Source of the DNA: a bacterium
Lineage (GTDB): Archaea; Thermoproteota; Nitrososphaeria; Nitrososphaerales; Gagatemarchaeaceae
DNA: 45,716 nucleotides
Assembly: GCA_027310575.1 (NCBI GenBank)
Contig: DAIDAO010000031.1
Coordinates: 1 to 45,716, forward strand
Direction: 5' to 3'
The notes beneath the pieces were generated by a model. The model was not told where the DNA came from, did no database searches, and worked only from the letters and a program-made list of their open reading frames with translations. Positions within the stretch are counted from its first letter, which is position 1. Every line of letters begins with the position of its first letter. This document shows, in pieces, positions 2 through 10,778 of this stretch. A program made the translations under genes and the position numbers.

Positions 2-364
2 GAACCGGCCCCGGAGCCGGCAGGCGAGGCCCTTGGGGAGCCGGCGTCGTCCCAGATCCCGATAGTGAGCCTGGAGAAGGGGGACTCGCTTGCTGACGTC
101 ATAGGGAAGTTCTTCTCGGGCCCGTGGGGGAGGGAGAGGCGAAAGCTCTCGGACGTGAGAGAGGCTCTGCAGTCCTATGGCCTCAACTACCCGAAGCAGT
201 CCGTCGCTGTCGCACTCCTCAGGCTGGCCAAGACCACGAAGCTGAGGCGGTTCAAGGCCGAGGACGGGGAGTTCGTCTACACCTCAGCGACGACTCTCCC
301 CAGCACCCTGCAGACTGCCAGCGAGCAGGTTCTGGACGAATTGGCGGGCACCCGGCCAAACTAA
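2..364 (+). CDS. Winged-helix-like DNA-binding protein, 5' end outside window
   Basis: The frame is open from the first bases of the window, so the gene begins upstream and only the C-terminal 120 residues are visible. A GTG at 65 could be an internal start, but the Pro/Glu/Ala-rich stretch before it looks like a linker rather than untranslated DNA. The visible part resembles a winged helix: a leucine-containing helix (LSDVREAL), a second helix (SVAVALLRLAK), then a basic strand ending in EFVYTSA. The same plan is seen in the proteins at 398-922 and 912-1403, so this is probably a third member of one family. Regulatory or chromatin role is inferred; no named family is recognised. Confidence 0.6.
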   Translation, partial: EPAPEPAGEALGEPASSQIPIVSLEKGDSLADVIGKFFSGPWGRERRKLSDVREALQSYGLNYPKQSVAVALLRLAKTTKLRRFKAEDGEFVYTSATTLPSTLQTASEQVLDELAGTRPN

Positions 365-397: not shown

Positions 398-922
398 CTG
401 CAAACGGACCTGTCAAGTGAAAGAGAACTTCGTGTTTCAGCAAGCTACGGCGAAGAGAAGGTCGACTTCTCTGGGTCCCCCGAGGTGGTCATGCGTTCCC
501 TCCATGAATACGTGTCCAAATGGATACCCAACATGGACCTGGCCAGAGTCATAAGTGTGAACTATTCCCTGAACGACCTGATACAGTTGTTCAAAGAATA
601 CGTCCGGGTCACTCCCGAAGGCCCGAGAGTCTGGGCACAGGACAAGAAGCTGAGTGATAGGGATGTCATCATGTTGCAGCTTGTCGCAGCGAGAATAGCG
701 AGCCTCAGCGGCAAGGCAAGCTCCGACGCCATGGGGGTGTCGGAGATAGAGGCGGCCACGGGGCTCTACCCAAAGACGATAAGCTCGCGGCTGAGCGAAC
801 TTACGAAGTCAGCCAACGTTGAGCGCGTGGACTCGGAACAGGGAGGGAAGTACAGGATAACGACCGTGGGGACGAACCGCCTCGGCGAGCAGCTCTCGAA
901 GAAGTTCAGGCCTACCCCTTGA
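398..922 (+). CDS. Two-domain DNA-binding protein with winged helix; start uncertain
   Basis: The first conventional start is GTG 485, but the frame is open from 365 and the residues before 485 read like protein (ELRVSASYGEEKVDFSG, then SPEVVMRSLHEYV). They match the N-terminal domain of the neighbour at 912-1403 (SVTIRLKRGAWEVEITT). No ATG, GTG or TTG exists in frame between 365 and 485, so I propose CTG 398 or 410, or an indel. The C-terminal half is a winged helix (VSEIEAATGLYPKTISSRLSEL, then a basic wing with GGKYRIT). The 3' end overlaps the convergent gene by 11 bp. A transcription regulator is inferred; the target is unknown. Confidence 0.55.
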   Translation: MQTDLSSERELRVSASYGEEKVDFSGSPEVVMRSLHEYVSKWIPNMDLARVISVNYSLNDLIQLFKEYVRVTPEGPRVWAQDKKLSDRDVIMLQLVAARIASLSGKASSDAMGVSEIEAATGLYPKTISSRLSELTKSANVERVDSEQGGKYRITTVGTNRLGEQLSKKFRPTP

Positions 923-1403
923 AGGGGTACTTCTGGACGTACATGTAGTTCCTCATGCTCCCGTCCCGGAAGAGCGAACCCTCTCGCACCAGGTCCACCA
1001 AGGTGTGTGACACCGCGGTCCTGTCGTAGTGGTATCCCCTCCGGCTCATCTCTTCGTGTACCTCCGACAGGGCCCTCGGCGTGGCGAACCAACCCTCCTT
1101 CCACATTGCCGTGATTACGCTCCTGCTCGTCTCGCCCTTCCTGTCGCCTGGGCCGGGTTCCTGAGAATCAACCAGGACTGGCTCCTTCGACGCCATCCCT
1201 GCGAGAACGCTTTCCACGGCCTGCTGAACCCTATCTTCCCGAGTGGTGATCTCCACCTCCCATGCCCCACGCTTGAGCCTGATGGTCACACTGGAGGGCT
1301 TCTCGGTCTCGGACAACTCGATCTTGTTGCGCTTGTTGTCCAAGATGCCATTATTTGAATTGGAGACTGCATCCGCCGAACGCAGCAGGACTGTGCTCTC
1401 CAA
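912..1403 (-). CDS. Two-domain winged-helix DNA-binding protein, divergent from nurA
   Basis: 163 residues from a TTG start at 1403. A short N-terminal beta domain (SVTIRLKRGAWEVEITT followed by a helix) is joined by a polar linker to a winged-helix domain (TPRALSEVHEEMSRRG, then a helix TAVSHTLVDLVREG and a wing ending in MYVQKYPFKG). The architecture matches the gene at 398-922. It is transcribed away from nurA-herA and shares a 90-bp promoter region containing three ATGTTGCGCA motifs, so autoregulation and control of nurA-herA are reasonable inferences. A TATA box at 1430-1437 sits about 30 nt before the TTG, in keeping with a leaderless message. The DNA target is not proven. Confidence 0.65.
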   Translation of the reverse strand: MESTVLLRSADAVSNSNNGILDNKRNKIELSETEKPSSVTIRLKRGAWEVEITTREDRVQQAVESVLAGMASKEPVLVDSQEPGPGDRKGETSRSVITAMWKEGWFATPRALSEVHEEMSRRGYHYDRTAVSHTLVDLVREGSLFRDGSMRNYMYVQKYPFKG

Positions 1404-1445: not shown

Positions 1446-1510
1446 ATGTTGCGCATATGTTGCGCAATCCTTATGTACCTAGGTGACAATAGCCCATGTT
1501 GCGCAACATG
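1446..1510. promoter_or_regulatory. Three-copy ATGTTGCGCA operator array upstream of nurA
   Basis: The 10-mer ATGTTGCGCA occurs exactly at 1446-1455, 1457-1466 and 1496-1505. The first two are 11 bp apart (one helical turn) and lie between the divergent TATA boxes. The third is half of a perfect 16-bp palindrome CATGTTGCGCAACATG (1495-1510) that covers the nurA start codons. This arrangement is typical of a repressor operator. The divergent winged-helix protein is the obvious candidate ligand, by inference. Confidence 0.7.
1471..1477 (+). promoter_or_regulatory. TATA-like box of nurA-herA
   Basis: TTATGTA at 1471-1477 lies directly after the second operator copy and 22 nt (centre) before ATG 1496, or 34 nt before ATG 1508. 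Repressor bound to the flanking repeats would block both this box and the transcription start. Confidence 0.5.
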
Positions 1511-2497
1511 GCCATAGCAGCACTTCCCGTGGAGGACGGACAGCTCGGCTTCTTCGACGCGCTCGCAAGAGAGTTCGAAGAGGCGTTCGCTGAGCTCACC
1601 GAGAGCGCCGAAAGGGAGCTCGCAGGCAGGGCGTTCGTCTTCAGCCGCTACGGGAGGGAGCTCTATCCGTACTTCGAGGCGACAGACGCCGACCTGGTCC
1701 CTGGGTGCATAATTCCCATAAAAGAAGGGCGACCGGTCGCGTCCGTCGACTCGACGTGCGTCCTCGTGGGCGAGACGTCACAGGGCGCCCTGTACGCAGC
1801 AAGGACAGCGGTCGGGGTCTCCTACGAAGGTTCCCTGCGCCGCTTCTTCAGGCTCGGGCCGATACTCGTGTACGCGAACGCGGGGGGGCTCAGCGGGCTC
1901 ACCTCTCACATTCCGTCGTCCGAGCTCGACCTCCTCCTCTCCGACCGCGCGGTCGCCGAGAGGTTCATCCGCAACACGGTCGAGCACAGGGTGATCGAGG
2001 CGATGGCGTCAGGCGCAGGCGAGACCATAGTCATGGCCGACGGCTCCCTCAAGCACCCCATGGGCCAGCTCGCGAGCTCGTTACTGCGCCGCGGTGCGGC
2101 TGGGAGGTCGATGGTCGGCTTCTCAAAGTCGAGCAACCTCATCCTCTCCGAAGACGTGATGGGCGCGCTTTCGCGTACCCGCGAGCCCTCATTCCATGTC
2201 CTCGACCACGGCCCTGTGAGCACCGTGCTCGCCAAGTTCACCCCAGACGGGCTCGTCTTCCGGCTCGACATAGCCGCCCCGGAGTCCCCCGAGGCGACCC
2301 TCGGAAGGATAATGTGGAACGACGCGTTCGCCTCCGGCTATCCCGACTCCCTGAAGGTGGCCCACCACCTCTCGATCTTTTCGAAGGCCGACGACCAGGC
2401 GCTCAAGGCGTTCGTGGCGAAGCGCTTCAGGGTCCGCCAGCTCCATGCCTTCCCTCTGAGGAAGATCGCCCTCGGGAGCTTCAGGGGGGCGGCGTAG
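1496..2497 (+). CDS. nurA: NurA 5'-3' nuclease
   Basis: 333 residues, within the usual NurA size range. NurA is a toroidal dimeric 5'-3' nuclease that works with the HerA translocase in DNA end resection. Two acidic metal-binding motifs are visible: the Asp of ASVDST (about residue 85) and that of VMADGSL (about residue 182), with late conserved histidines (KVAHHL, LHAFPL). ATG 1496 overlaps the operator palindrome; ATG 1508 is an alternative start. The next frame, in the same phase, is herA, immediately after the TAG stop. No mre11 or rad50 is present in the window. The nuclease family call is confident; a specific role in repair or defence is inference. Confidence 0.9.
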   Translation: MLRNMAIAALPVEDGQLGFFDALAREFEEAFAELTESAERELAGRAFVFSRYGRELYPYFEATDADLVPGCIIPIKEGRPVASVDSTCVLVGETSQGALYAARTAVGVSYEGSLRRFFRLGPILVYANAGGLSGLTSHIPSSELDLLLSDRAVAERFIRNTVEHRVIEAMASGAGETIVMADGSLKHPMGQLASSLLRRGAAGRSMVGFSKSSNLILSEDVMGALSRTREPSFHVLDHGPVSTVLAKFTPDGLVFRLDIAAPESPEATLGRIMWNDAFASGYPDSLKVAHHLSIFSKADDQALKAFVAKRFRVRQLHAFPLRKIALGSFRGAA

Positions 2498-3988
2498 ACG
2501 AAGATCCTCAAGAAGGAGTCGGACGACATCCTGGTCATCGCCTCCCCGCACGAGCGAGTGCGCGTCGGGGACTACCTCGTGGTCTCGGAGCCCCAGAGGA
2601 GCCTCGTCCTCCAGGTCTACGACGAGCGGTATCTCGACGTCGAGGGGATAGAGGAGGAGATAGCGAGGGAGGAGGTCCTTTCGGCCTCGGCCCCGGGGGT
2701 GACGTCCGACCCGACAGAGCTCACGACGATCTCGACCCTGATACGCGACATGAGGATACTGCTCTGCAAGGCCCGCGGGACGATCTCTGACGGGAGGCTC
2801 ACGCCGAGGGCGAACTGGATGCCGTCGCGGACCAGCTCGGCAGTGAAGCGGCTGATGATAGAGGACCTGGCCGGGGCGGTCGCGCCCCTAGGGGTGAGGG
2901 ACATCCGCCTAGGCACTGTCGACGGCGAGTCCGCCTTCGCGATACCCGCCGAAGCGCTCGACGGGAGGATAACCGTCATCACGGGCCGGAAGGAGTCGGG
3001 GAAGTCCCACCTCGCGAAGATCCTGCTGAGGGGGCTCATGGCCAACGAGGCGTACTCCGTGATATTCGACCTCAACGACGAATACGGGACGGTCGGGATG
3101 AGGGAGGACGGGTCCGACGCCGGAGACGGCCGGAAGGTGAAGGTGCTCCGCCCGGGGAGGGAGCTGAAGTTCTCCCTCGCGTCTGTCGGGCTCAGGCCCA
3201 TCACCAGCCTGCTGTCGCACTCCCTCGAGATGCCCGGGACCTCGCTCAGGGAGTTCGTGAAGATCTGGGAGCAGCTGGACAACAGGGACGAGCTGTCCCT
3301 GGCCTCCCTCGAGTCTGCGATACAGCAGTGGAGGTGCAACGAGTTCGTCCGGGACGCCCTCTTCGCGAGGTATAACACGATCGCCTCCTGCGGGCTCTTC
3401 ACCGACTCGCCTCACCAGCAGTTCGACCTCCAGGACTTCTTCTCGCTGAACAGGTCCGGGGGCGCGCTGGTGGTCTCGCTCAGCGGCGTCTCGCCGCTCA
3501 ACAGGAAGATGGTTGTGGAGCTGATACTCTCGAAGCTCGTCGAGCTGCTGGAGCGGAGGAAGATACCGCCGGTCTTCCTCTTCGCTGAGGAGGCGCACCT
3601 GTACCTCAGGGACACGTACTGGGAGGACCTCATCACCAGGATGCGTCACTTCGGCGTGTTCACGGTCTTCGTGACCAACCAGCCCGACGCCATCGACCAG
3701 AAGATCTACCGCCAGGTGGACAACATATTCCTCTACAACTTCAGCAGCGACTCGGACCTCAACCTCGTAGCGCAGGCCTCGATGGCAGACTCGGACACGG
3801 TGAGGGCGATAGTGAGGACCCTCCCGCCGAGGATGTGCCTCCTCCTCGGGTACGCGGTGAGGAACCTCCCGGTGGTCGTCGGCGTCGACCCCATCGACGC
3901 CCCTGCGTCAGGGCTGACCAGGCGCTTCTTCCGCGAACCCCTGGCCAGGGCGGCCGCCGAGCCTGCGTCCCAGACCTACGGCTCGTAG
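2498..3988 (+). CDS. herA: HerA-like DNA translocase ATPase; no canonical start for full-length form
   Basis: Hexameric FtsK/HerA-family ATPase, partner of NurA. Walker A is GRKESGKS (about 163-170 counting from 2498), Walker B VFLFAEEAHL (about 359-368), and the C-terminal part has FVTNQPDAID and DNIFLYNF. The first conventional start is GTG 2558, but this would cut into the N-terminal HAS-barrel. The 20 codons from 2498 (KILKKESDDILVIASPHERV) fit the missing barrel strands and are in frame right after the nurA TAG. The candidates are ACG 2498, ATC 2504, stop read-through giving a NurA-HerA fusion, or a truncated protein. The 3' end overlaps the convergent pilin-like gene by 13 bp. Confidence 0.85.
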   Translation, partial: TKILKKESDDILVIASPHERVRVGDYLVVSEPQRSLVLQVYDERYLDVEGIEEEIAREEVLSASAPGVTSDPTELTTISTLIRDMRILLCKARGTISDGRLTPRANWMPSRTSSAVKRLMIEDLAGAVAPLGVRDIRLGTVDGESAFAIPAEALDGRITVITGRKESGKSHLAKILLRGLMANEAYSVIFDLNDEYGTVGMREDGSDAGDGRKVKVLRPGRELKFSLASVGLRPITSLLSHSLEMPGTSLREFVKIWEQLDNRDELSLASLESAIQQWRCNEFVRDALFARYNTIASCGLFTDSPHQQFDLQDFFSLNRSGGALVVSLSGVSPLNRKMVVELILSKLVELLERRKIPPVFLFAEEAHLYLRDTYWEDLITRMRHFGVFTVFVTNQPDAIDQKIYRQVDNIFLYNFSSDSDLNLVAQASMADSDTVRAIVRTLPPRMCLLLGYAVRNLPVVVGVDPIDAPASGLTRRFFREPLARAAAEPASQTYGS

Positions 3989-5298
3989 TAGACGACGACC
4001 TGGCCGGAACCCCCGCTCCCCCCTGCGGCTCCGCTTCGCGTGGAGCACGCGGACGTCGGCGAGTACGACCCCCCGGCCCCTCCCCCGCCGGCGCCAGTGT
4101 TCGGAGGCGCGCTCCCTCCGGGCATCCCAGACCCGCAGGAGGTCGCCGCGCTTCCTCCGCTCCCGCCGTTGGAGAACGGCGAGGCGGAGCCTCCCCCGCC
4201 CCCCAGCGCGCACGCACCCGACGCTCCGGCAGAGCTTGTGAACAGGCCCCCGGAGGCGAACGACCCGCTCCAGCTCCCGGCCCCTGGCGGGGTCGCGAGC
4301 GAGCTCCCCCCGCCTCCTCCCCCGCCGTAGAGCGTCTGCCGCATCGCGTTCGCCGGGGAGCCGGCAGCGGACGAGGTCCCGCCTGGGATGCCGTCCCCGC
4401 TCCCACCCGCGGCAGCCTCGCTCGGGCCGCAGGAGCTCCCGCTCCCCCCGTTGTAGTTGTAGTAGCTCCCCCCTCCGCCCTGCCCTCCCCCGCACGCCAT
4501 GAGGCTCCCGAAGGAGCTCGCGCCCCCGTCGCCCCCCTTTCCTCCGCTCGTGACGTACCCGCCTGCGGAGCCGCCTGCCCCGCCCTGGCCGACTGTCACG
4601 GACACCGACGCAGCCCCTCCGAGGCTCACGAAACCCTGCACGAGGCTCCCCACCCCTCCGCCTCCCCCGCCTCCGTTCCCAGAGGGCCCGGTGCTGTAGG
4701 TCGCGCTGCCGCTCCCCCCTCCTCCCCCGCCCCCGCCCACGCAGACGACGTAGGCGTAGGCGACGCCGCTGGGGACGTTCCAGGTCACCGAGCCGGAGAA
4801 CCTGACCTGCACCCAGCCCGCCGACCCCCCGCCTGCGGTGTACCAGAACACGCTCCCCATGGTCGTGACCAGACCGACGGACGCCCCGCTGGGGCTCCCA
4901 GCCAGTATCTGGTCGAACTTCGAAGCGCAGGTCGCGGCCCCGGGCGTGCATATCTGGGACGGGATCAGGGCGCCGACCGACACCCTTCCACCCGTCGGGA
5001 CTTCGGCTGACGCTGCGAGCGGGTACGCGGTCCCGTTCGGGTAGAGCAGGACGACGTACGCGATCGCGACCGACGGCCCCTCGTCCGTGGCCTCGAGCCC
5101 GGACGGCCCCGTGCTGAACGTCATCGACTCGGCCCCCCGCCGGGAGGCTGCGGCCTGCGCCTCCTGCTCCGCCTGTGAAGTCTGGGCCTGGAGGCCGGAG
5201 ACGTACGCCATGGAACCGAGCGCCAGGAGGAAGACGACCACGAAGAAGACAGTCCCGACCACCGAAGCGACCCCCCTGCGGCCCGTCTGGAGCCTCAT
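3976..5298 (-). CDS. Pilin-like protein fused to a glycine-rich domain
   Basis: 440 residues. The N-terminus is a type IV pilin (class III) signal: basic GRRG, then VASVVGTVFFVVVFLLALGS, so cleavage after the Gly of RRG is likely. About residues 45-165 form a polar domain. From about 166 (VRFSGSVTWNVPSGVAY) the protein switches to a very glycine-rich region that ends in GQVVVYYEP. This is the layout of glycine-rich domains in phage tail-fibre and surface proteins, where the ending forms a beta strand. It is the last gene of the pilin cluster and overlaps herA tail-to-tail by 13 bp. Role as a minor pilin or tip adhesin is inferred. The low-complexity DNA produces long spurious frames on the other strand. 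Confidence 0.75.
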   Translation of the reverse strand: MRLQTGRRGVASVVGTVFFVVVFLLALGSMAYVSGLQAQTSQAEQEAQAAASRRGAESMTFSTGPSGLEATDEGPSVAIAYVVLLYPNGTAYPLAASAEVPTGGRVSVGALIPSQICTPGAATCASKFDQILAGSPSGASVGLVTTMGSVFWYTAGGGSAGWVQVRFSGSVTWNVPSGVAYAYVVCVGGGGGGGGSGSATYSTGPSGNGGGGGGGVGSLVQGFVSLGGAASVSVTVGQGGAGGSAGGYVTSGGKGGDGGASSFGSLMACGGGQGGGGSYYNYNGGSGSSCGPSEAAAGGSGDGIPGGTSSAAGSPANAMRQTLYGGGGGGGSSLATPPGAGSWSGSFASGGLFTSSAGASGACALGGGGGSASPFSNGGSGGSAATSCGSGMPGGSAPPNTGAGGGGAGGSYSPTSACSTRSGAAGGSGGSGQVVVYYEP

Positions 5299-5310
5299 CC
5301 CGCCACCCTG

Positions 5311-5811
5311 CTACGCGGGCACGACCTCGACCGCCAGGGTCTGCTGGGCCCCGTCCGAGGCGGTCACGGTCACCTGGCAGACTCCCCCGGGCTGGAAGGA
5401 AGCCCCCTGGATCACGAGGGTCACCACGACCCCTGCCCCTGGGGCGAGCGTCTCCCCTATCGCGACCGAGCCCGGACCTGCGCTCATGGATGGGCAGGTC
5501 GAGGTGAGCACTGCGCGTCCCAGTGGGTCGTAGACAGTGTAGCAGTAGGTCGCGGCCGGCTGGACCGCCGAGGTGGAGATGACGAAGGAGCCCAGCGGCG
5601 CGCTCCCGCTGTCGTACACCGTCAGGCTCTCCACTGCGACGAGCTCCCCCTGGCGTATCGTGGCTCCTGCCACGTAGACTGCGGGTCCTCCGCCGGGCGA
5701 GACGATGTCCGCCGCCCCCCTGTACACGAGCCCTGAGCCCCCGACCGCCACCCCGATCAGCACGAAGACCTCGAGGTAGGCCGAGACCCCTCTGCGCCGC
5801 TCAGGTCTCAA
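5311..5811 (-). CDS. Type IV pilin-like protein
   Basis: 166 residues from TTG 5811. The N-terminus ERRRG followed by VSAYLEVFVLIGVAVGGSGL is a class III signal with a predicted prepilin-peptidase cut after Gly. The mature part is a small beta-rich, Ser/Thr/Ala-rich domain with two cysteines in the middle (near TYCYTVYD and TSTCPS) and one near the end (GVCQVTV). It overlaps the end of the preceding pilin gene by 11 bp and is separated from the glycine-rich pilin gene by 12 bp, so the genes are probably cotranscribed. Major or minor pilin status cannot be told from sequence. Confidence 0.7.
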   Translation of the reverse strand: MRPERRRGVSAYLEVFVLIGVAVGGSGLVYRGAADIVSPGGGPAVYVAGATIRQGELVAVESLTVYDSGSAPLGSFVISTSAVQPAATYCYTVYDPLGRAVLTSTCPSMSAGPGSVAIGETLAPGAGVVVTLVIQGASFQPGGVCQVTVTASDGAQQTLAVEVVPA

Positions 5812-6263
5812 TCTGCACCTCGGCCCCTCCGGAGTCGACAGCGAAGACGACGAGGCCCGGGCTGTGGGCGCAGGATCCCAGGCTGATCTGGAACTGCGCC
5901 ATCGTCCCCGGAGTAACGACCGGGTAGCTCGCGGCGTACATGGTCGAGTTGACTATGACCTCGGCGGGGGCGAAGGGGGTGGTCCCGTAGTCGAAGAGCG
6001 ACAGCGTCAGGAGCGTCCCTTCCCCTGTCCCCTGGTACGTCGGACACGACCCGGACGGCGCGACCGTGGCGTAGATCATGCTGAGCTGCACGCCTGACGC
6101 GGCGCCCTGCGCAGACGCTGCGAGTGCCGCGGACCCGTCCCCCTGGTTGATCGTCCCGACCGCCGCTGCTACGACCGCTCCGCCCAGCGAGAGCGTCACG
6201 CCTACCATGAGCATCGAAGCGTAGAGCTCGCTTACTCCGCGTCGCCCTGCGCGCCTTGAACAA
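5801..6263 (-). CDS. Type IV pilin-like protein, start obscured
   Basis: The first ATG (6214) lies inside the hydrophobic helix, so a product from there would lack a pilin signal. The frame is open upstream to 6292 and encodes RRAGRRGVSELYASMLMVGV, the same RRG-V cleavage motif as its neighbours, but no ATG, GTG or TTG occurs in that frame. A TTG at 6263 in the next frame would give an N-terminus beginning with FKARR if a single base in the GGG run at 6245-6247 were extra. So either a non-canonical start or a one-base indel is present. The mature domain is short, with cysteines in GSCPTYQ and LGSCAHS. Confidence 0.55.
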
Positions 6264-6292
6264 AACGGGGGAAGGGCCGTGGCCGGGCCCTC

Positions 6293-6814
6293 CTACTGGG
6301 ATATCACGGTGACCTGCGCCGAGGCTGAGCCGAAGAGCACGTTGATGGTGACCGGCTGGCCCGCTGACCAGTAGGTACCCGACGGCAAGGGTCCGTTCAC
6401 GACGAAGGAGGTCTCCGCCCCCGGCGCGAGCGGGCTGGCGCCCGTCGCATAGAAGGTGAGGGGACCGGTGGTGGTGCTGACAGCCCAGCTCAGGGTGCCG
6501 CCGTACGCTATGCAGGAGCCGGAACACGATGGCGTTGTCACGCTGGTCCCGGCGATCACCACCTGGCAGGACTGGGCAGTGCAGGTGATCGGGCTCCCCC
6601 CGTTGTTCTTCACAGACACAGTTATCGCGGCGGGGGCCGGTGATCCTGCTCTGAGAGAGGCTCCTACGACTGTGATGCTCGTGTTCGCCGTGGCGCTGTT
6701 GACGAGGTTGTAGACCGAGGCGCTGACCACGCCTCCAACGCCCAGGACGGCCGCGATGATGATGAAGAGGTCCATGCTCTGTGATATCGCGCTGCGGCGT
6801 CTGCTGATTTTCAT
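6293..6814 (-). CDS. Type IV pilin-like protein, first of the pilin cluster
   Basis: 173 residues from ATG 6814. The basic N-terminus KISRRRSAIS is followed by a hydrophobic helix DLFIIIAAVLGVGGVVSASV, as in archaeal pilins. The mature domain is an immunoglobulin-like beta sandwich by appearance, with repeated Val/Thr strands and four cysteines (TCTAQSC, SCSGSC) that could form disulfides outside the cell. A TATA box at 6835-6842 places the transcription start near the ATG. The pilin cluster can therefore be transcribed apart from the ATPase and platform genes upstream. Confidence 0.75.
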   Translation of the reverse strand: MKISRRRSAISQSMDLFIIIAAVLGVGGVVSASVYNLVNSATANTSITVVGASLRAGSPAPAAITVSVKNNGGSPITCTAQSCQVVIAGTSVTTPSCSGSCIAYGGTLSWAVSTTTGPLTFYATGASPLAPGAETSFVVNGPLPSGTYWSAGQPVTINVLFGSASAQVTVISQ

Positions 6815-6834
6815 GCCGAACGACCCCCGGGCCC

Positions 6835-6842
6835 CATTTAAC
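6835..6842 (-). promoter_or_regulatory. TATA box of the pilin cluster
   Basis: The minus strand reads GTTAAATG at 6835-6842, about 24 nt before ATG 6814. It lies in the 44-bp gap after the platform gene, giving the four pilin genes their own leaderless promoter. Confidence 0.55.
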
Positions 6843-6858
6843 GCCCCACCCGCGCCGC

Positions 6859-8499
6859 CTATGCCGACAGAAGCTGGGCCAGCGAATGTGAGCTCAGCAG
6901 GGCCATGGCCGCGATTGCAGAGGCGGCAAGCGCGACGTTCAGCGACGCTCTGAGGGTGTTCTTCACAGTGAGGTCCGTGATCTTCGCGCCGATGAGCCCG
7001 AGGGAAGCGGCAGACACGACGATCAGCAGGTCGGCGACCTGCGTCAGCCCGGGGGGCACAGCCCCGAGCTGGAACCCGTTGACGTGCAGGGTCGAGAAGC
7101 CCGGGGCGACCCTGCTGCTGAAGGACGAGAGCACCCCCTCCACGAACGACACGCCGAACGCGAGCAGGAGCGGGGAGATGTACGACAGGATGAGGTAGGG
7201 CTTCATCTCTGCGCTCGAGCTCTGCCTCATGCCCGTGAGCCGGGTCGCGAAGCTCGAGATCTGGTACACAGTGTCGACAGTGCCTCCCCCGGAGCGGCTC
7301 ATCTGCCCCAGGAGCAGGAACGTCAGCTTCCCGAGCCTGCTCCTGCACTCCACCCTGACCTCGTCGAGCGGGACCCCGGCCCTCAGCTGGGCGGCCACCT
7401 TCGACATGACGCGCCCGAAGCGCGGGTTGTGCTGCCCGGCTGCCTCCAGGGACATCACCGCCCTCGCCAGGTCGTATTCCTGCCTCTTGTACTCGAGCAG
7501 GTCCCTGAGGAACCTCGACACCCCCTCGTCGACATCCTTCGTCTCCGTGAGCTGCTCCCTCACCGAGAGCCCGTACAGCACGAAGAAGATGAAGAGCGCA
7601 CCCGCTATCCCGACCCAGGCCAGGCCAGCCGCGACCCCTGCCAGCGCTGGGGGTACCGCCAGCGCGACCGCCCTCCATGCCTTCCCCGCGACTGCCTCCT
7701 CGCGGGAGGGCTGCATCCTCCCAGCCAGGTAGAGCAGGAATATGGTGAACAGCGGGACTCCGAGCCCGGTGAACACCACGAGCCCCACTATCGATAGCCC
7801 GGGCGAGAAGACCCCCACGACCATGAGCAGGAGCGGGACCACGCCGAAGACTGTGATCATCATGCTCCCGATTATCCCGACCCTCCCGACGTACCTCGTC
7901 CACCGGTCCTCGAGGTCCTTCAGCAGGGCGCCGCTCTCTCCGACGAGGTAGAACGGGACGTCCCCGCCGCTCCTCGCCTTGCTCGTGTACCCCAGCAGGA
8001 ACTCGCTGAACCTCCTGGAGGGGTGGCTCGACGCGAGCCTTTCGAGCGCGTCGTTCGCGTTCATCCCCAGTATCTCGACGTCCCTCTTCACGAGCAGCGC
8101 CTCCTTCCCTATGTGCTCGAAGACGTCCCTCCCCGCGAGGTCCCTGAACACGGAGTAGAGCGGCACCCCCGCGCCCCCCAGGACGCTGACCAGCATGGCG
8201 AAGAACGGGAGCTCCCTCTCCACCCCCTCCCCTCTCTGCGCCACGCTGTCCCTGAGCTTCAGCTCCGGTCCCAGGAAGAAAGCGAGAGGGGCGGCGCCCG
8301 CAAGGAAGAGCCACGGCGAGACGAGCGCCCCGCCCGCGACTGCAGCCGGGGCGGCAATCAGCGCGGAAGCGAACGTCCTCCTTACTGACTCTCCCGCGAT
8401 CGCAGCCGGGTTCCCGATCTTCCCTGCGCGCCTGAGGAGGCCGGCGTACTTCGCGGACCTGGCCCGGACCAGCCTTGCCGAAGGCCGGGAGCGCATCAA
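6859..8499 (-). CDS. Type IV pilus/Tad platform membrane protein (TadC/FlaJ family)
   Basis: 546 residues with two T2SSF-type units. Each has a cytoplasmic helical part (about 75-190 and 320-450) followed by pairs of transmembrane helices (for example GIIGSMMITVFGVVPLLLMV and YLILSYISPLLLAFGVSF). This is the inner-membrane platform that couples the secretion ATPase to pilin assembly. TTG 8499 is directly followed by ATG 8496, so either could be the start. Only 5 bp separate it from the ATPase gene, so the two form an operon. Closest functional class: archaeal adhesion pilus or Tad-like, because the archaellum accessory genes are missing. Confidence 0.88.
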   Translation of the reverse strand: MMRSRPSARLVRARSAKYAGLLRRAGKIGNPAAIAGESVRRTFASALIAAPAAVAGGALVSPWLFLAGAAPLAFFLGPELKLRDSVAQRGEGVERELPFFAMLVSVLGGAGVPLYSVFRDLAGRDVFEHIGKEALLVKRDVEILGMNANDALERLASSHPSRRFSEFLLGYTSKARSGGDVPFYLVGESGALLKDLEDRWTRYVGRVGIIGSMMITVFGVVPLLLMVVGVFSPGLSIVGLVVFTGLGVPLFTIFLLYLAGRMQPSREEAVAGKAWRAVALAVPPALAGVAAGLAWVGIAGALFIFFVLYGLSVREQLTETKDVDEGVSRFLRDLLEYKRQEYDLARAVMSLEAAGQHNPRFGRVMSKVAAQLRAGVPLDEVRVECRSRLGKLTFLLLGQMSRSGGGTVDTVYQISSFATRLTGMRQSSSAEMKPYLILSYISPLLLAFGVSFVEGVLSSFSSRVAPGFSTLHVNGFQLGAVPPGLTQVADLLIVVSAASLGLIGAKITDLTVKNTLRASLNVALAASAIAAMALLSSHSLAQLLSA

Positions 8500-8504
8500 T
8501 GCAG

Positions 8505-10193
8505 CTAGGACTTCCAGCCCGTCTCCCCTCGGTGCCCCGACTCCTCGACCGAGAACTCCCTGACCATCTTCGAAAGGGCGAGGGGGGTGAGCCCGCCGGC
8601 AGCTATCTGCCCGGAGATCCGTGCCGCCCTGACCGAGAGGCTCCTCTGCACCGCGGCCGGGGTCCAGCCGAAGCTCTCGGCGATCTCGTTGAGCCGGAAC
8701 GACTTGTCCAGCACCTCCGCAGGCGTCGTCGGGGAGAACGAGTCGGACGCGGGGTCATACCGGAACACGTTCAGTATCTCGTGGCCGTCCGGCCCGCCCG
8801 GCCTGACCTCGTCGACGCTGACGACCCTCCTGACAACCCTGCCGTCCTGGAGGACCACCTTCCTCATCGTGGCTATCGCTGTGATGTCTCGGACGTGCCC
8901 GGTCGAGAAGCGCATGGGAGGGGTCGTCAGCCGCTGGACGCACCTCTCGGCGTTCTCTGCGTGGATCGTGGTCATGGTCGAGAACCCGAGGGTGATGGCC
9001 GCGGCAACGGTCTCCGACTCCTCCCCCCGCATCTCCCCCAGGCTGAGTATCGTCGGAGAGAACCGCAGGGCGAGCTTCAGCAGTTCGGGGAGCCCGTATT
9101 CGTACCGTCCCGCAGTCGGCGAGAGCCCCGCCCTGAAGGGCCTTGTCTTGAGCCGCTGCCAGTGGAGGTGGTCCGGGAGGCTGATCTCGAGCACGTCCTC
9201 AGCCGTGACTATCTTGCACTTCGGGTTCGCCATTGCGAGTATCGCGTTCATCAGCGTGGTCTTCCCCGAGTTCGTCTCGCCAGCGATGAGCACGTTGGTG
9301 GTCCTTTCGAGCAGGAGCCAGAAGTAGGCGGCCATGAGCACGGACAGGGTCTTGTGCGCGTGCACCTCCTCGTAGGAGGCTGCCAGCTCAGGGAGCCCCT
9401 GCAGCGAAAGGGCTGGCCAGCGGGCGTGCTCCTGGGCGGCCAGCTGCGCGAGCGTGATCGGGCTCTCCTTCTGCTTCCTTATGGTGAACGTGGACCCGGG
9501 CCTCGATATCTCGTCCCCGAGCGTGGCTGTCACCCTCCTGTCAGCGCGTCCGTGGAGCGTGACCTCGAGCGACGGCTGGGCAAGGGACACGGTGGTGCCG
9601 CCGAGCTGCGCGAGCCTCCTGACGAAGGCCTGCAGCCGCTCTTCCGAGGGATAGACCACGTCTGTCTCCATGAACATGTACTGGCTGAAGTCCCTGTGGA
9701 GGACCCGGACCGGGCGGTCGAAGCGGCAGCAGGAGATCTCCTCAAGGCAGTCGTCGTTCACCAGGGGGTCCGCCTCCCAGAAGCCCGAGAACTCCCTCAT
9801 CAGGTAGTAGAGGAGCTTCTCGTGCGAGCCGTCGACCACGTCCGCGATCCCCAGCCCCTCGGCCGTCCTCGTGACGTAGTCCGAGACTACCTCGCGCGGG
9901 TCCCCCGCCGCTTCCGCAGGTATCGAGTCGAGCAGGTTCGCGCGGAGGAGCTCGAGCGCCTTCAGCTCTTCGGGGTCGAGCTTCGGGAGCCTGACGAGGT
10001 ACCTGCCGAGCCCGTCCTCGTCGACCACGAACACCTGCGCTGACGAGTCGGGGCTCCCTCCGGAAGGGACGCGGTAGGTGTCGAGCACCCCTGAGATCTG
10101 GTCCGGGGGAGGCACGGCAGCGGGGGCGGGCGCCTTCTCGAACGCGCCGTCTCGGGCTTCCCCCCTCCTGAAGAGCTGCCACACCCTGGACAT
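8505..10193 (-). CDS. Type II/IV secretion ATPase (TadA/VirB11/PilT family)
   Basis: 562 residues. Walker A is GETNSGKTT (about 304-312), followed by an Asp box (TAEDVLEISLP), a Walker B-like ILSLGEMRGEE and the His box TTIHAE, all in the order expected for assembly ATPases. The N-terminal 150 residues are a variable extension, and the C-terminus adds a helical tail after the core. The open frame runs further upstream, but ATG 10193 is chosen because a strong TATA box is centred 26 nt before it. It powers assembly of the pilins encoded downstream. A prepilin peptidase gene is not in the window. Confidence 0.92.
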   Translation of the reverse strand: MSRVWQLFRRGEARDGAFEKAPAPAAVPPPDQISGVLDTYRVPSGGSPDSSAQVFVVDEDGLGRYLVRLPKLDPEELKALELLRANLLDSIPAEAAGDPREVVSDYVTRTAEGLGIADVVDGSHEKLLYYLMREFSGFWEADPLVNDDCLEEISCCRFDRPVRVLHRDFSQYMFMETDVVYPSEERLQAFVRRLAQLGGTTVSLAQPSLEVTLHGRADRRVTATLGDEISRPGSTFTIRKQKESPITLAQLAAQEHARWPALSLQGLPELAASYEEVHAHKTLSVLMAAYFWLLLERTTNVLIAGETNSGKTTLMNAILAMANPKCKIVTAEDVLEISLPDHLHWQRLKTRPFRAGLSPTAGRYEYGLPELLKLALRFSPTILSLGEMRGEESETVAAAITLGFSTMTTIHAENAERCVQRLTTPPMRFSTGHVRDITAIATMRKVVLQDGRVVRRVVSVDEVRPGGPDGHEILNVFRYDPASDSFSPTTPAEVLDKSFRLNEIAESFGWTPAAVQRSLSVRAARISGQIAAGGLTPLALSKMVREFSVEESGHRGETGWKS

Positions 10194-10215
10194 CCCCACA
10201 TCAGGATTTGTCCGG

Positions 10216-10224
10216 CTTATAACG
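10216..10224 (-). promoter_or_regulatory. TATA box of the secretion ATPase-platform operon
   Basis: The minus strand reads CGTTATAAG at 10216-10224, with its centre 26-27 nt before ATG 10193. It decides the start codon of the ATPase gene and implies a leaderless mRNA. Confidence 0.65.
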
Positions 10225-10295
10225 CGCCAGCCCCGGACGCCGCTGCGTCTGCGGACGGCAAAGGATTTGACAGCGGCCCGCAGGCTCCCCTGCCG

Positions 10296-10778
10296 TTGAA
10301 GACGCTGGAGGTCGACCTCGACGTCCCGGAGGGGGACCAGCTGATCATCGGACAGGCACACTTTATCAAGACCGTGGAGGACCTGTACGAGGCGCTCGCT
10401 ACCGCAGTCCCGGGCCTGAAGTTCGGGCTCGCGTTCTGCGAGGCTTCGGGGAAGGCCCTTGTCCGGTCGGAGGGCTCGGACGGGGAGCTGGAGAAGCTCG
10501 CCAGCGGCTACGCGGCCCGGATTGGCGCCGGCCACTCCTTCGTGGTCCTGCTCAGGGGGGCGTTCCCGATCAACGTGATGAACAGGATGAAGTCCGTCGA
10601 GGAGGTCGCCGGGGTCTTCTGCGCCACCTCCAACCCGGTCACTGTCATCGTAGCCGAGACCGGGAGGGGGCGTGGTGTCCTGGGGGTCGTGGACGGCGTC
10701 TCCCCCAAGGGGGTCGAGGGCCCTGCTGACCGGGCGGAAAGGCGGGAGTTCCTCAGGAAGATAGGGTACAAGCGCTAG
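10296..10778 (+). CDS. Adenosine-specific kinase-like family protein
   Basis: 160 residues, the full length of the archaeal family named adenosine-specific kinase (Pfam PF04008). The diagnostic conserved blocks are all present: HFIKTVEDLYEAL, KFGLAFCEASGK, FPINVMNRMK, CATSNPVTVIVAETGRGRG and a C-terminal FLRKIGYKR. The family binds adenosine nucleotides; its physiological substrate is poorly settled. TTG 10296 is the start, giving the expected MKTLEVDLDVPEG beginning. The gene is divergent from the pilus operon and stands alone; no functional link with its neighbours is evident. Confidence 0.85.
   Translation: MKTLEVDLDVPEGDQLIIGQAHFIKTVEDLYEALATAVPGLKFGLAFCEASGKALVRSEGSDGELEKLASGYAARIGAGHSFVVLLRGAFPINVMNRMKSVEEVAGVFCATSNPVTVIVAETGRGRGVLGVVDGVSPKGVEGPADRAERREFLRKIGYKR

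Follow-up and report, generated by a model that had tools for sequence, protein, structure and literature searches.

Conserved TGNNCA operators and a divergent winged-helix protein as the probable local control of archaeal nurA-herA

Introduction

Local autoregulated repressors of the Lrp, MarR or BlaI kind are found in archaea. They are small winged helix-turn-helix (wHTH) proteins with palindromic operators at the BRE, the TATA box or the transcription start, and act on a divergent promoter or on their own. In bacteria, the control of repair genes by a repressor is represented by LexA and the SOS response. EarA, which activates the Methanococcus fla operon, has four 6-bp sites directly upstream of the BRE (PMC5512572). 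Repressors in archaea bind in the promoter or close to the start site and there block TFB/TBP or the polymerase (PMC5512572). In Pyrobaculum, a CRISPR-associated cluster, nurA-csm6-herA, is described, for which extra roles are proposed (PMC3396285).

The locus described here resembles the EarA system in that an archaeal regulator is accompanied by repeated 6-bp sites directly upstream of BRE and TATA. Unlike in the case of this activator, palindromic TGNNCA sequences also lie over the predicted start codon, and regulator and target are encoded divergently. The plan of a small wHTH protein, a palindromic operator and a divergent promoter is shared with repressors of the Lrp, MarR and BlaI kind, but the regulator falls below the Pfam cut-off for each of these families, and the operon it targets serves DNA-end resection. 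As with LexA, a repressor-like operator is present on a recombination and repair operon; in contrast to LexA, no LexA-like match is seen here and the site is essentially confined to one locus, so there is no LexA-type regulon. The clustering of nurA with herA is common to this locus and Pyrobaculum, whereas a dedicated regulator or operator is not described in the passages of that report consulted here (PMC3396285). A literature search on NurA-HerA regulation in these archaea, with subscription papers outside its scope, returned gene inventory, biochemistry and CRISPR association only, and no published description of an operator and regulator system like this one. The mode of working of a local wHTH autoregulator is known; what appears to be new is the regulator family, the genes it targets and how deeply the operator is conserved.

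Results

The window, that is, the whole analysed stretch of 45,716 nucleotides (contig DAIDAO010000031.1), contains five genes that are kept together as a cluster in most loci of the class. g2 (2–364, plus strand), cut by the contig edge, and g3 (485–922, plus strand), a neighbour kept across the cluster, both encode wHTH-like proteins; the relatives of g2 elsewhere are distantly paralogous to the regulator. The regulator gene (912–1403, minus strand) is divergent from nurA (1508–2497, plus strand), the likely start of which is placed by comparison with relatives. The nurA product matches the NurA domain PF09376 with an E-value of 6.4e-5, at 23 bits against a gathering score of 21. The adjoining herA (2498–3988, plus strand) contains the HerA central domain PF01935 (E 4.5e-9) and follows nurA in relatives as well; its start is uncertain, with an in-frame GTG at 2558. 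When the locus is compared with defence models, only HerA itself resembles any of them, and the locus is not marked as a defence locus. The regulator-nurA-herA module is an old chromosomal one. Further along, the minus strand of 3976–10535 carries a glycine-rich pilin-like ORF and then ORFs which, judged by eye, resemble a Tad-like pilus cluster.

The regulator is predicted to consist of a beta-beta-alpha N-terminal part and a wHTH. The window protein finds no significant family in Pfam or NCBIfam, and its weak Pfam matches are mostly to wHTH families. Among 13 members of the regulator family, the best match to BlaI/MecI (Penicillinase_R, PF03965) has an E-value of 0.0031, below the gathering score, and the window regulator itself has no match to this model at E 0.05. 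The best matches to MarR models among the same number of members are also below the gathering scores (E 0.014 for MarR_2 and 0.037 for MarR). With the curated NCBIfam cut-offs, no family is assigned to the window protein, and the 13 members yield a single chance-level match (E 0.048). A PDB profile search with the regulator gave one chance-level match (E 0.81). The AlphaFold model has the order E-E-H then H-H-H at low confidence (mean pLDDT 57), and Foldseek with this weak model returned nothing significant (best E 1.3).

The regulator and nurA are distributed together. Among 200 genomes of the class, a strong regulator match is present in 78, a nurA match in 77, both in 76, and neither in 121. 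In 75 of the 76 genomes with both, the two genes are adjacent and head-to-head, the divergent arrangement of autoregulated local wHTH repressors; the exception has them on different contigs. Only one weak nurA match occurs without the regulator (G103), and it is not confirmed by the Pfam NurA profile. The regulator is found without a nurA match in two reduced genomes (G174 and G187). At two loci in genomes of 0.8–1.0 Mb (L070 and L078), the regulator and both operators are present and NurA is not recognised; the short ORF after operator 2 is possibly a remnant of nurA. Family f2 and three genera of family f4 (g15, g22 and g35) have neither the regulator nor a solid nurA match, which suggests a joint loss of both. 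Among 300 genomes of the phylum, the regulator is seen in 82. In families outside the class, the NurA gene is divergent from the regulator and is followed by HerA where the sequence covers it, and operator 1 is mostly the same.

The intergenic region of the window contains the decamer ATGTTGCGCA as exact copies at 1446–1455, 1457–1466 and 1496–1505 on the plus strand, and at 1500–1509 on the minus strand. The three occurrences within 60 bp noted earlier are thus real, and the minus-strand copy is an addition to them. As was also noted, the first two copies are one helical turn apart (11 bp) between divergent TATA boxes. The TATA-like box of the regulator, at about 1430–1437, reads ATTATAAAGG on the minus strand and is about 30 bp upstream of the TTG at 1403. 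The TATA-like box of nurA is TTATGTA at 1471–1477 on the plus strand, a position kept in relatives. A palindrome on the nurA start codon had been given as 16 bp long; it does lie in the start region, but CCATGTTGCGCAACATGG extends over 18 bp (1494–1511).

To speak of a three-copy array is an understatement, as five TGNNCA hexamers, starting at 1441, 1450, 1461, 1500 and 1509, are arranged in two operators around the nurA TATA box. Operator 1 (1441–1466), between the two TATA boxes, includes TGTGCA (1441–1446) and two TGCGCA (1450–1455 and 1461–1466). Operator 2 (1494–1514), in and beside the 18-bp palindrome, includes TGCGCA (1500–1505) and TGGCCA (1509–1514) with a spacing of 9 bp. Judged from the alignments, TGNNCA is the conserved unit, usually repeated at 9-bp spacing, and the decamers at 11 bp in the window are a local variant.

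The start of nurA is more likely the ATG at 1508 than the ATG at 1496 used earlier. At the position matching 1496, L016 has ATC and several relatives and other families lack ATG, and the distance from the TATA box also points to 1508. From the same TATA-to-start distance, transcription of nurA is inferred to begin near 1500, inside operator 2. Operator 2 is therefore predicted to cover both the transcription start and the start codon.

The 1.58-Mb genome contains a single further exact copy of ATGTTGCGCA, at C59:5181 within an unrelated ORF; no further array was found, and the exact motif is not scattered. The occurrence of only one additional copy, together with the cluster at nurA, indicates that the clustering of ATGTTGCGCA is not due to chance. 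With one mismatch allowed, the decamer is at background over the whole genome, with 52 matches compared with 60 for the reversed control. Where a genome has the regulator, the exact pattern of operator 1 plus TATA is found at nurA, and one other site (G001:C3:280505) is among the matches listed. The additional matches obtained without the TATA box are scattered single ones away from nurA. The genome of the window misses the strict pattern because its hexamer spacing differs. The one-mismatch decamers at background, the scattered patterns away from nurA and the extra exact copy inside an unrelated gene lead us to reject a genome-wide regulon. An SOS-like damage regulon was likewise not found, as operator 1 plus TATA is seen essentially only at nurA among the matches listed. 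Such a near-exclusive site, as far as pattern matching can tell, fits a dedicated local regulator.

Upstream regions of nurA were aligned on the TATA box for the close relatives, which are uncultured archaea (L006–L019), and for class-wide relatives (L020–L049 and later loci). The 49 distinct loci of the class are related to each other and represent about 13 families. These regions are alignable even where NurA identity is only 25–30%. In all 49 promoters, a TGNNCAA directly before the nurA TATA box closes operator 1, and operator 2 starts with TGNNCA 34–39 bp downstream of this TATA-proximal TGNNCAA; as the alignment is anchored on TGNNCA, it follows from the method that TG and CA never vary in the two anchor hexamers. 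Informative despite the anchoring are the absence of any locus without the pair, the A following the first anchor (49/49), and the second TG of operator 2, which is unanchored (49/49). In these promoters palindromic operators lie at the BRE, the TATA box or the transcription start, the last placed by its distance from the TATA box, as expected for an autoregulated local wHTH repressor. At four loci of one family (f11; L029, L032, L033 and L038), a further TGTTCA is seen near the start codon of the regulator itself, possibly a third operator.

Hexamers paired at 9 bp are present in 51 of 52 class loci and in 23 of 28 loci outside the class that have the regulator. Such pairs occur in 0.4% of shuffled sequences and in none of 30 NurA promoters from genomes without the regulator; these 30 are from other lineages, so that regulator presence is confounded with shared ancestry, which may account for part of the contrast. 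In the sequences compared, the operator and the regulator are co-conserved across more than 20 families.

In four families (f12, f24, f29 and f37), the two genes are still paired but the canonical pair of sites is missing. In f12 (L145–L148 and L152), the regulator and nurA are divergent and the operator is a different repeat, TTCATGAA / ATTCAATA; the regulator is more diverged, and its putative recognition helix has S at a position where D is nearly invariant. In the other three families, NurA is of another subtype and the sites are TTGTTGATTGAACAATCAACAACA-like. The regulator and the site appear to change together, which supports direct recognition, in a few clades.

Discussion

A small DNA-binding protein encoded by the neighbouring gene very probably controls nurA-herA and itself through an ancient switch, as far as comparison of genomes can indicate. 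The preliminary claim that the divergent protein binds an operator array at nurA-herA gains strong comparative support from the co-conservation across families and from the lack of the element in NurA promoters of genomes without the regulator. Induction by DNA damage or virus attack, proposed earlier from the tightness of the operator, is a guess that finds no support in these comparisons. The array probably serves as operator for a dedicated local regulator that also controls its own gene and most likely represses nurA-herA. The sequence, its conservation, the gene linkage and the near-exclusivity of the site are observed here, whereas binding by this protein, repression, autoregulation and any inducing signal are what we infer. 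On either side of the nurA TATA box, the winged-helix protein of the divergent gene would bind TGNNCA palindromes in pairs. Its sites would be operator 1, which lies between the divergent promoters at the BRE, and operator 2, over the predicted transcription start and start codon of nurA. Occupied operators would most likely block TFB/TBP and RNA polymerase, and nurA-herA would be kept low. Bound operator 1 would also block the BRE of the regulator itself, resulting in autoregulation. Repression, and for operator 1 autoregulation, are favoured since the operators are in the BRE region and the start region, where archaeal repressors act (PMC5512572). The repressor model is limited in that a site just upstream of the BRE could also serve activation, as with EarA, that the g2 paralog could bind as well, and that f12, f24, f29 and f37 have the gene pair but not the canonical sites.

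It would be rather surprising if the divergent protein bound these sites mainly to activate nurA-herA, with operator 1 recruiting TFB at a weak BRE, like EarA, TFB-RF1 and the ara-box factor, and operator 2 serving as feedback. The four 6-bp sites of EarA lie directly upstream of the BRE (PMC5512572), which is also the position of operator 1, but operator 2, no less conserved than operator 1, covers the predicted start of transcription and the start codon, a placement that fits repression better. Binding by another factor, such as the g2 paralog, g3 or a global regulator, with the adjoining wHTH gene linked for another reason, is doubtful to a greater degree. Both g3 and g2, the latter distantly paralogous to the regulator, are likewise conserved as neighbours; yet six loci of family f15 (L040–L042, L066, L073 and L075) keep the operators while g2 and g3 are undetected in the flanks fetched. 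Among the matches listed, the site also lacks the genome-wide distribution expected of a global regulator, and the presence of the operator tracks that of the regulator.

Part of operator 2 is inside the nurA coding region, and the palindrome at the start codon could in principle be a by-product of a conserved NurA N-terminus, the upstream repeats being due to chance. This is extremely improbable. The second codon of nurA, inside operator 2, has C as the third base in 46 of 49 loci, while its first two bases vary. Because the third base is fixed and the first two are variable, the reverse of protein constraint, operator 2 is constrained as DNA, and protein constraint behind the palindrome is rejected. 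Operator 1, moreover, is non-coding and yet kept over many families.

As to the significance of a dedicated local repressor, little is known of how archaea control recombination and end resection, and HerA-NurA is mostly regarded as a housekeeping pair. The retention of the regulator and operator with nurA-herA in many families, inside and outside the class, implies that the dose must be controlled. The operator is unusual in that its core is legible over very large distances, where NurA is only about 25–30% identical. The locus offers a defined protein, a DNA fragment of 90 bp and an obvious target for mutation. It can be speculated, tentatively, that this wHTH family senses DNA breaks, the state of replication or invading DNA, and derepresses nurA-herA. 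If this is true, HerA-NurA would be under inducible control in organisms without LexA.
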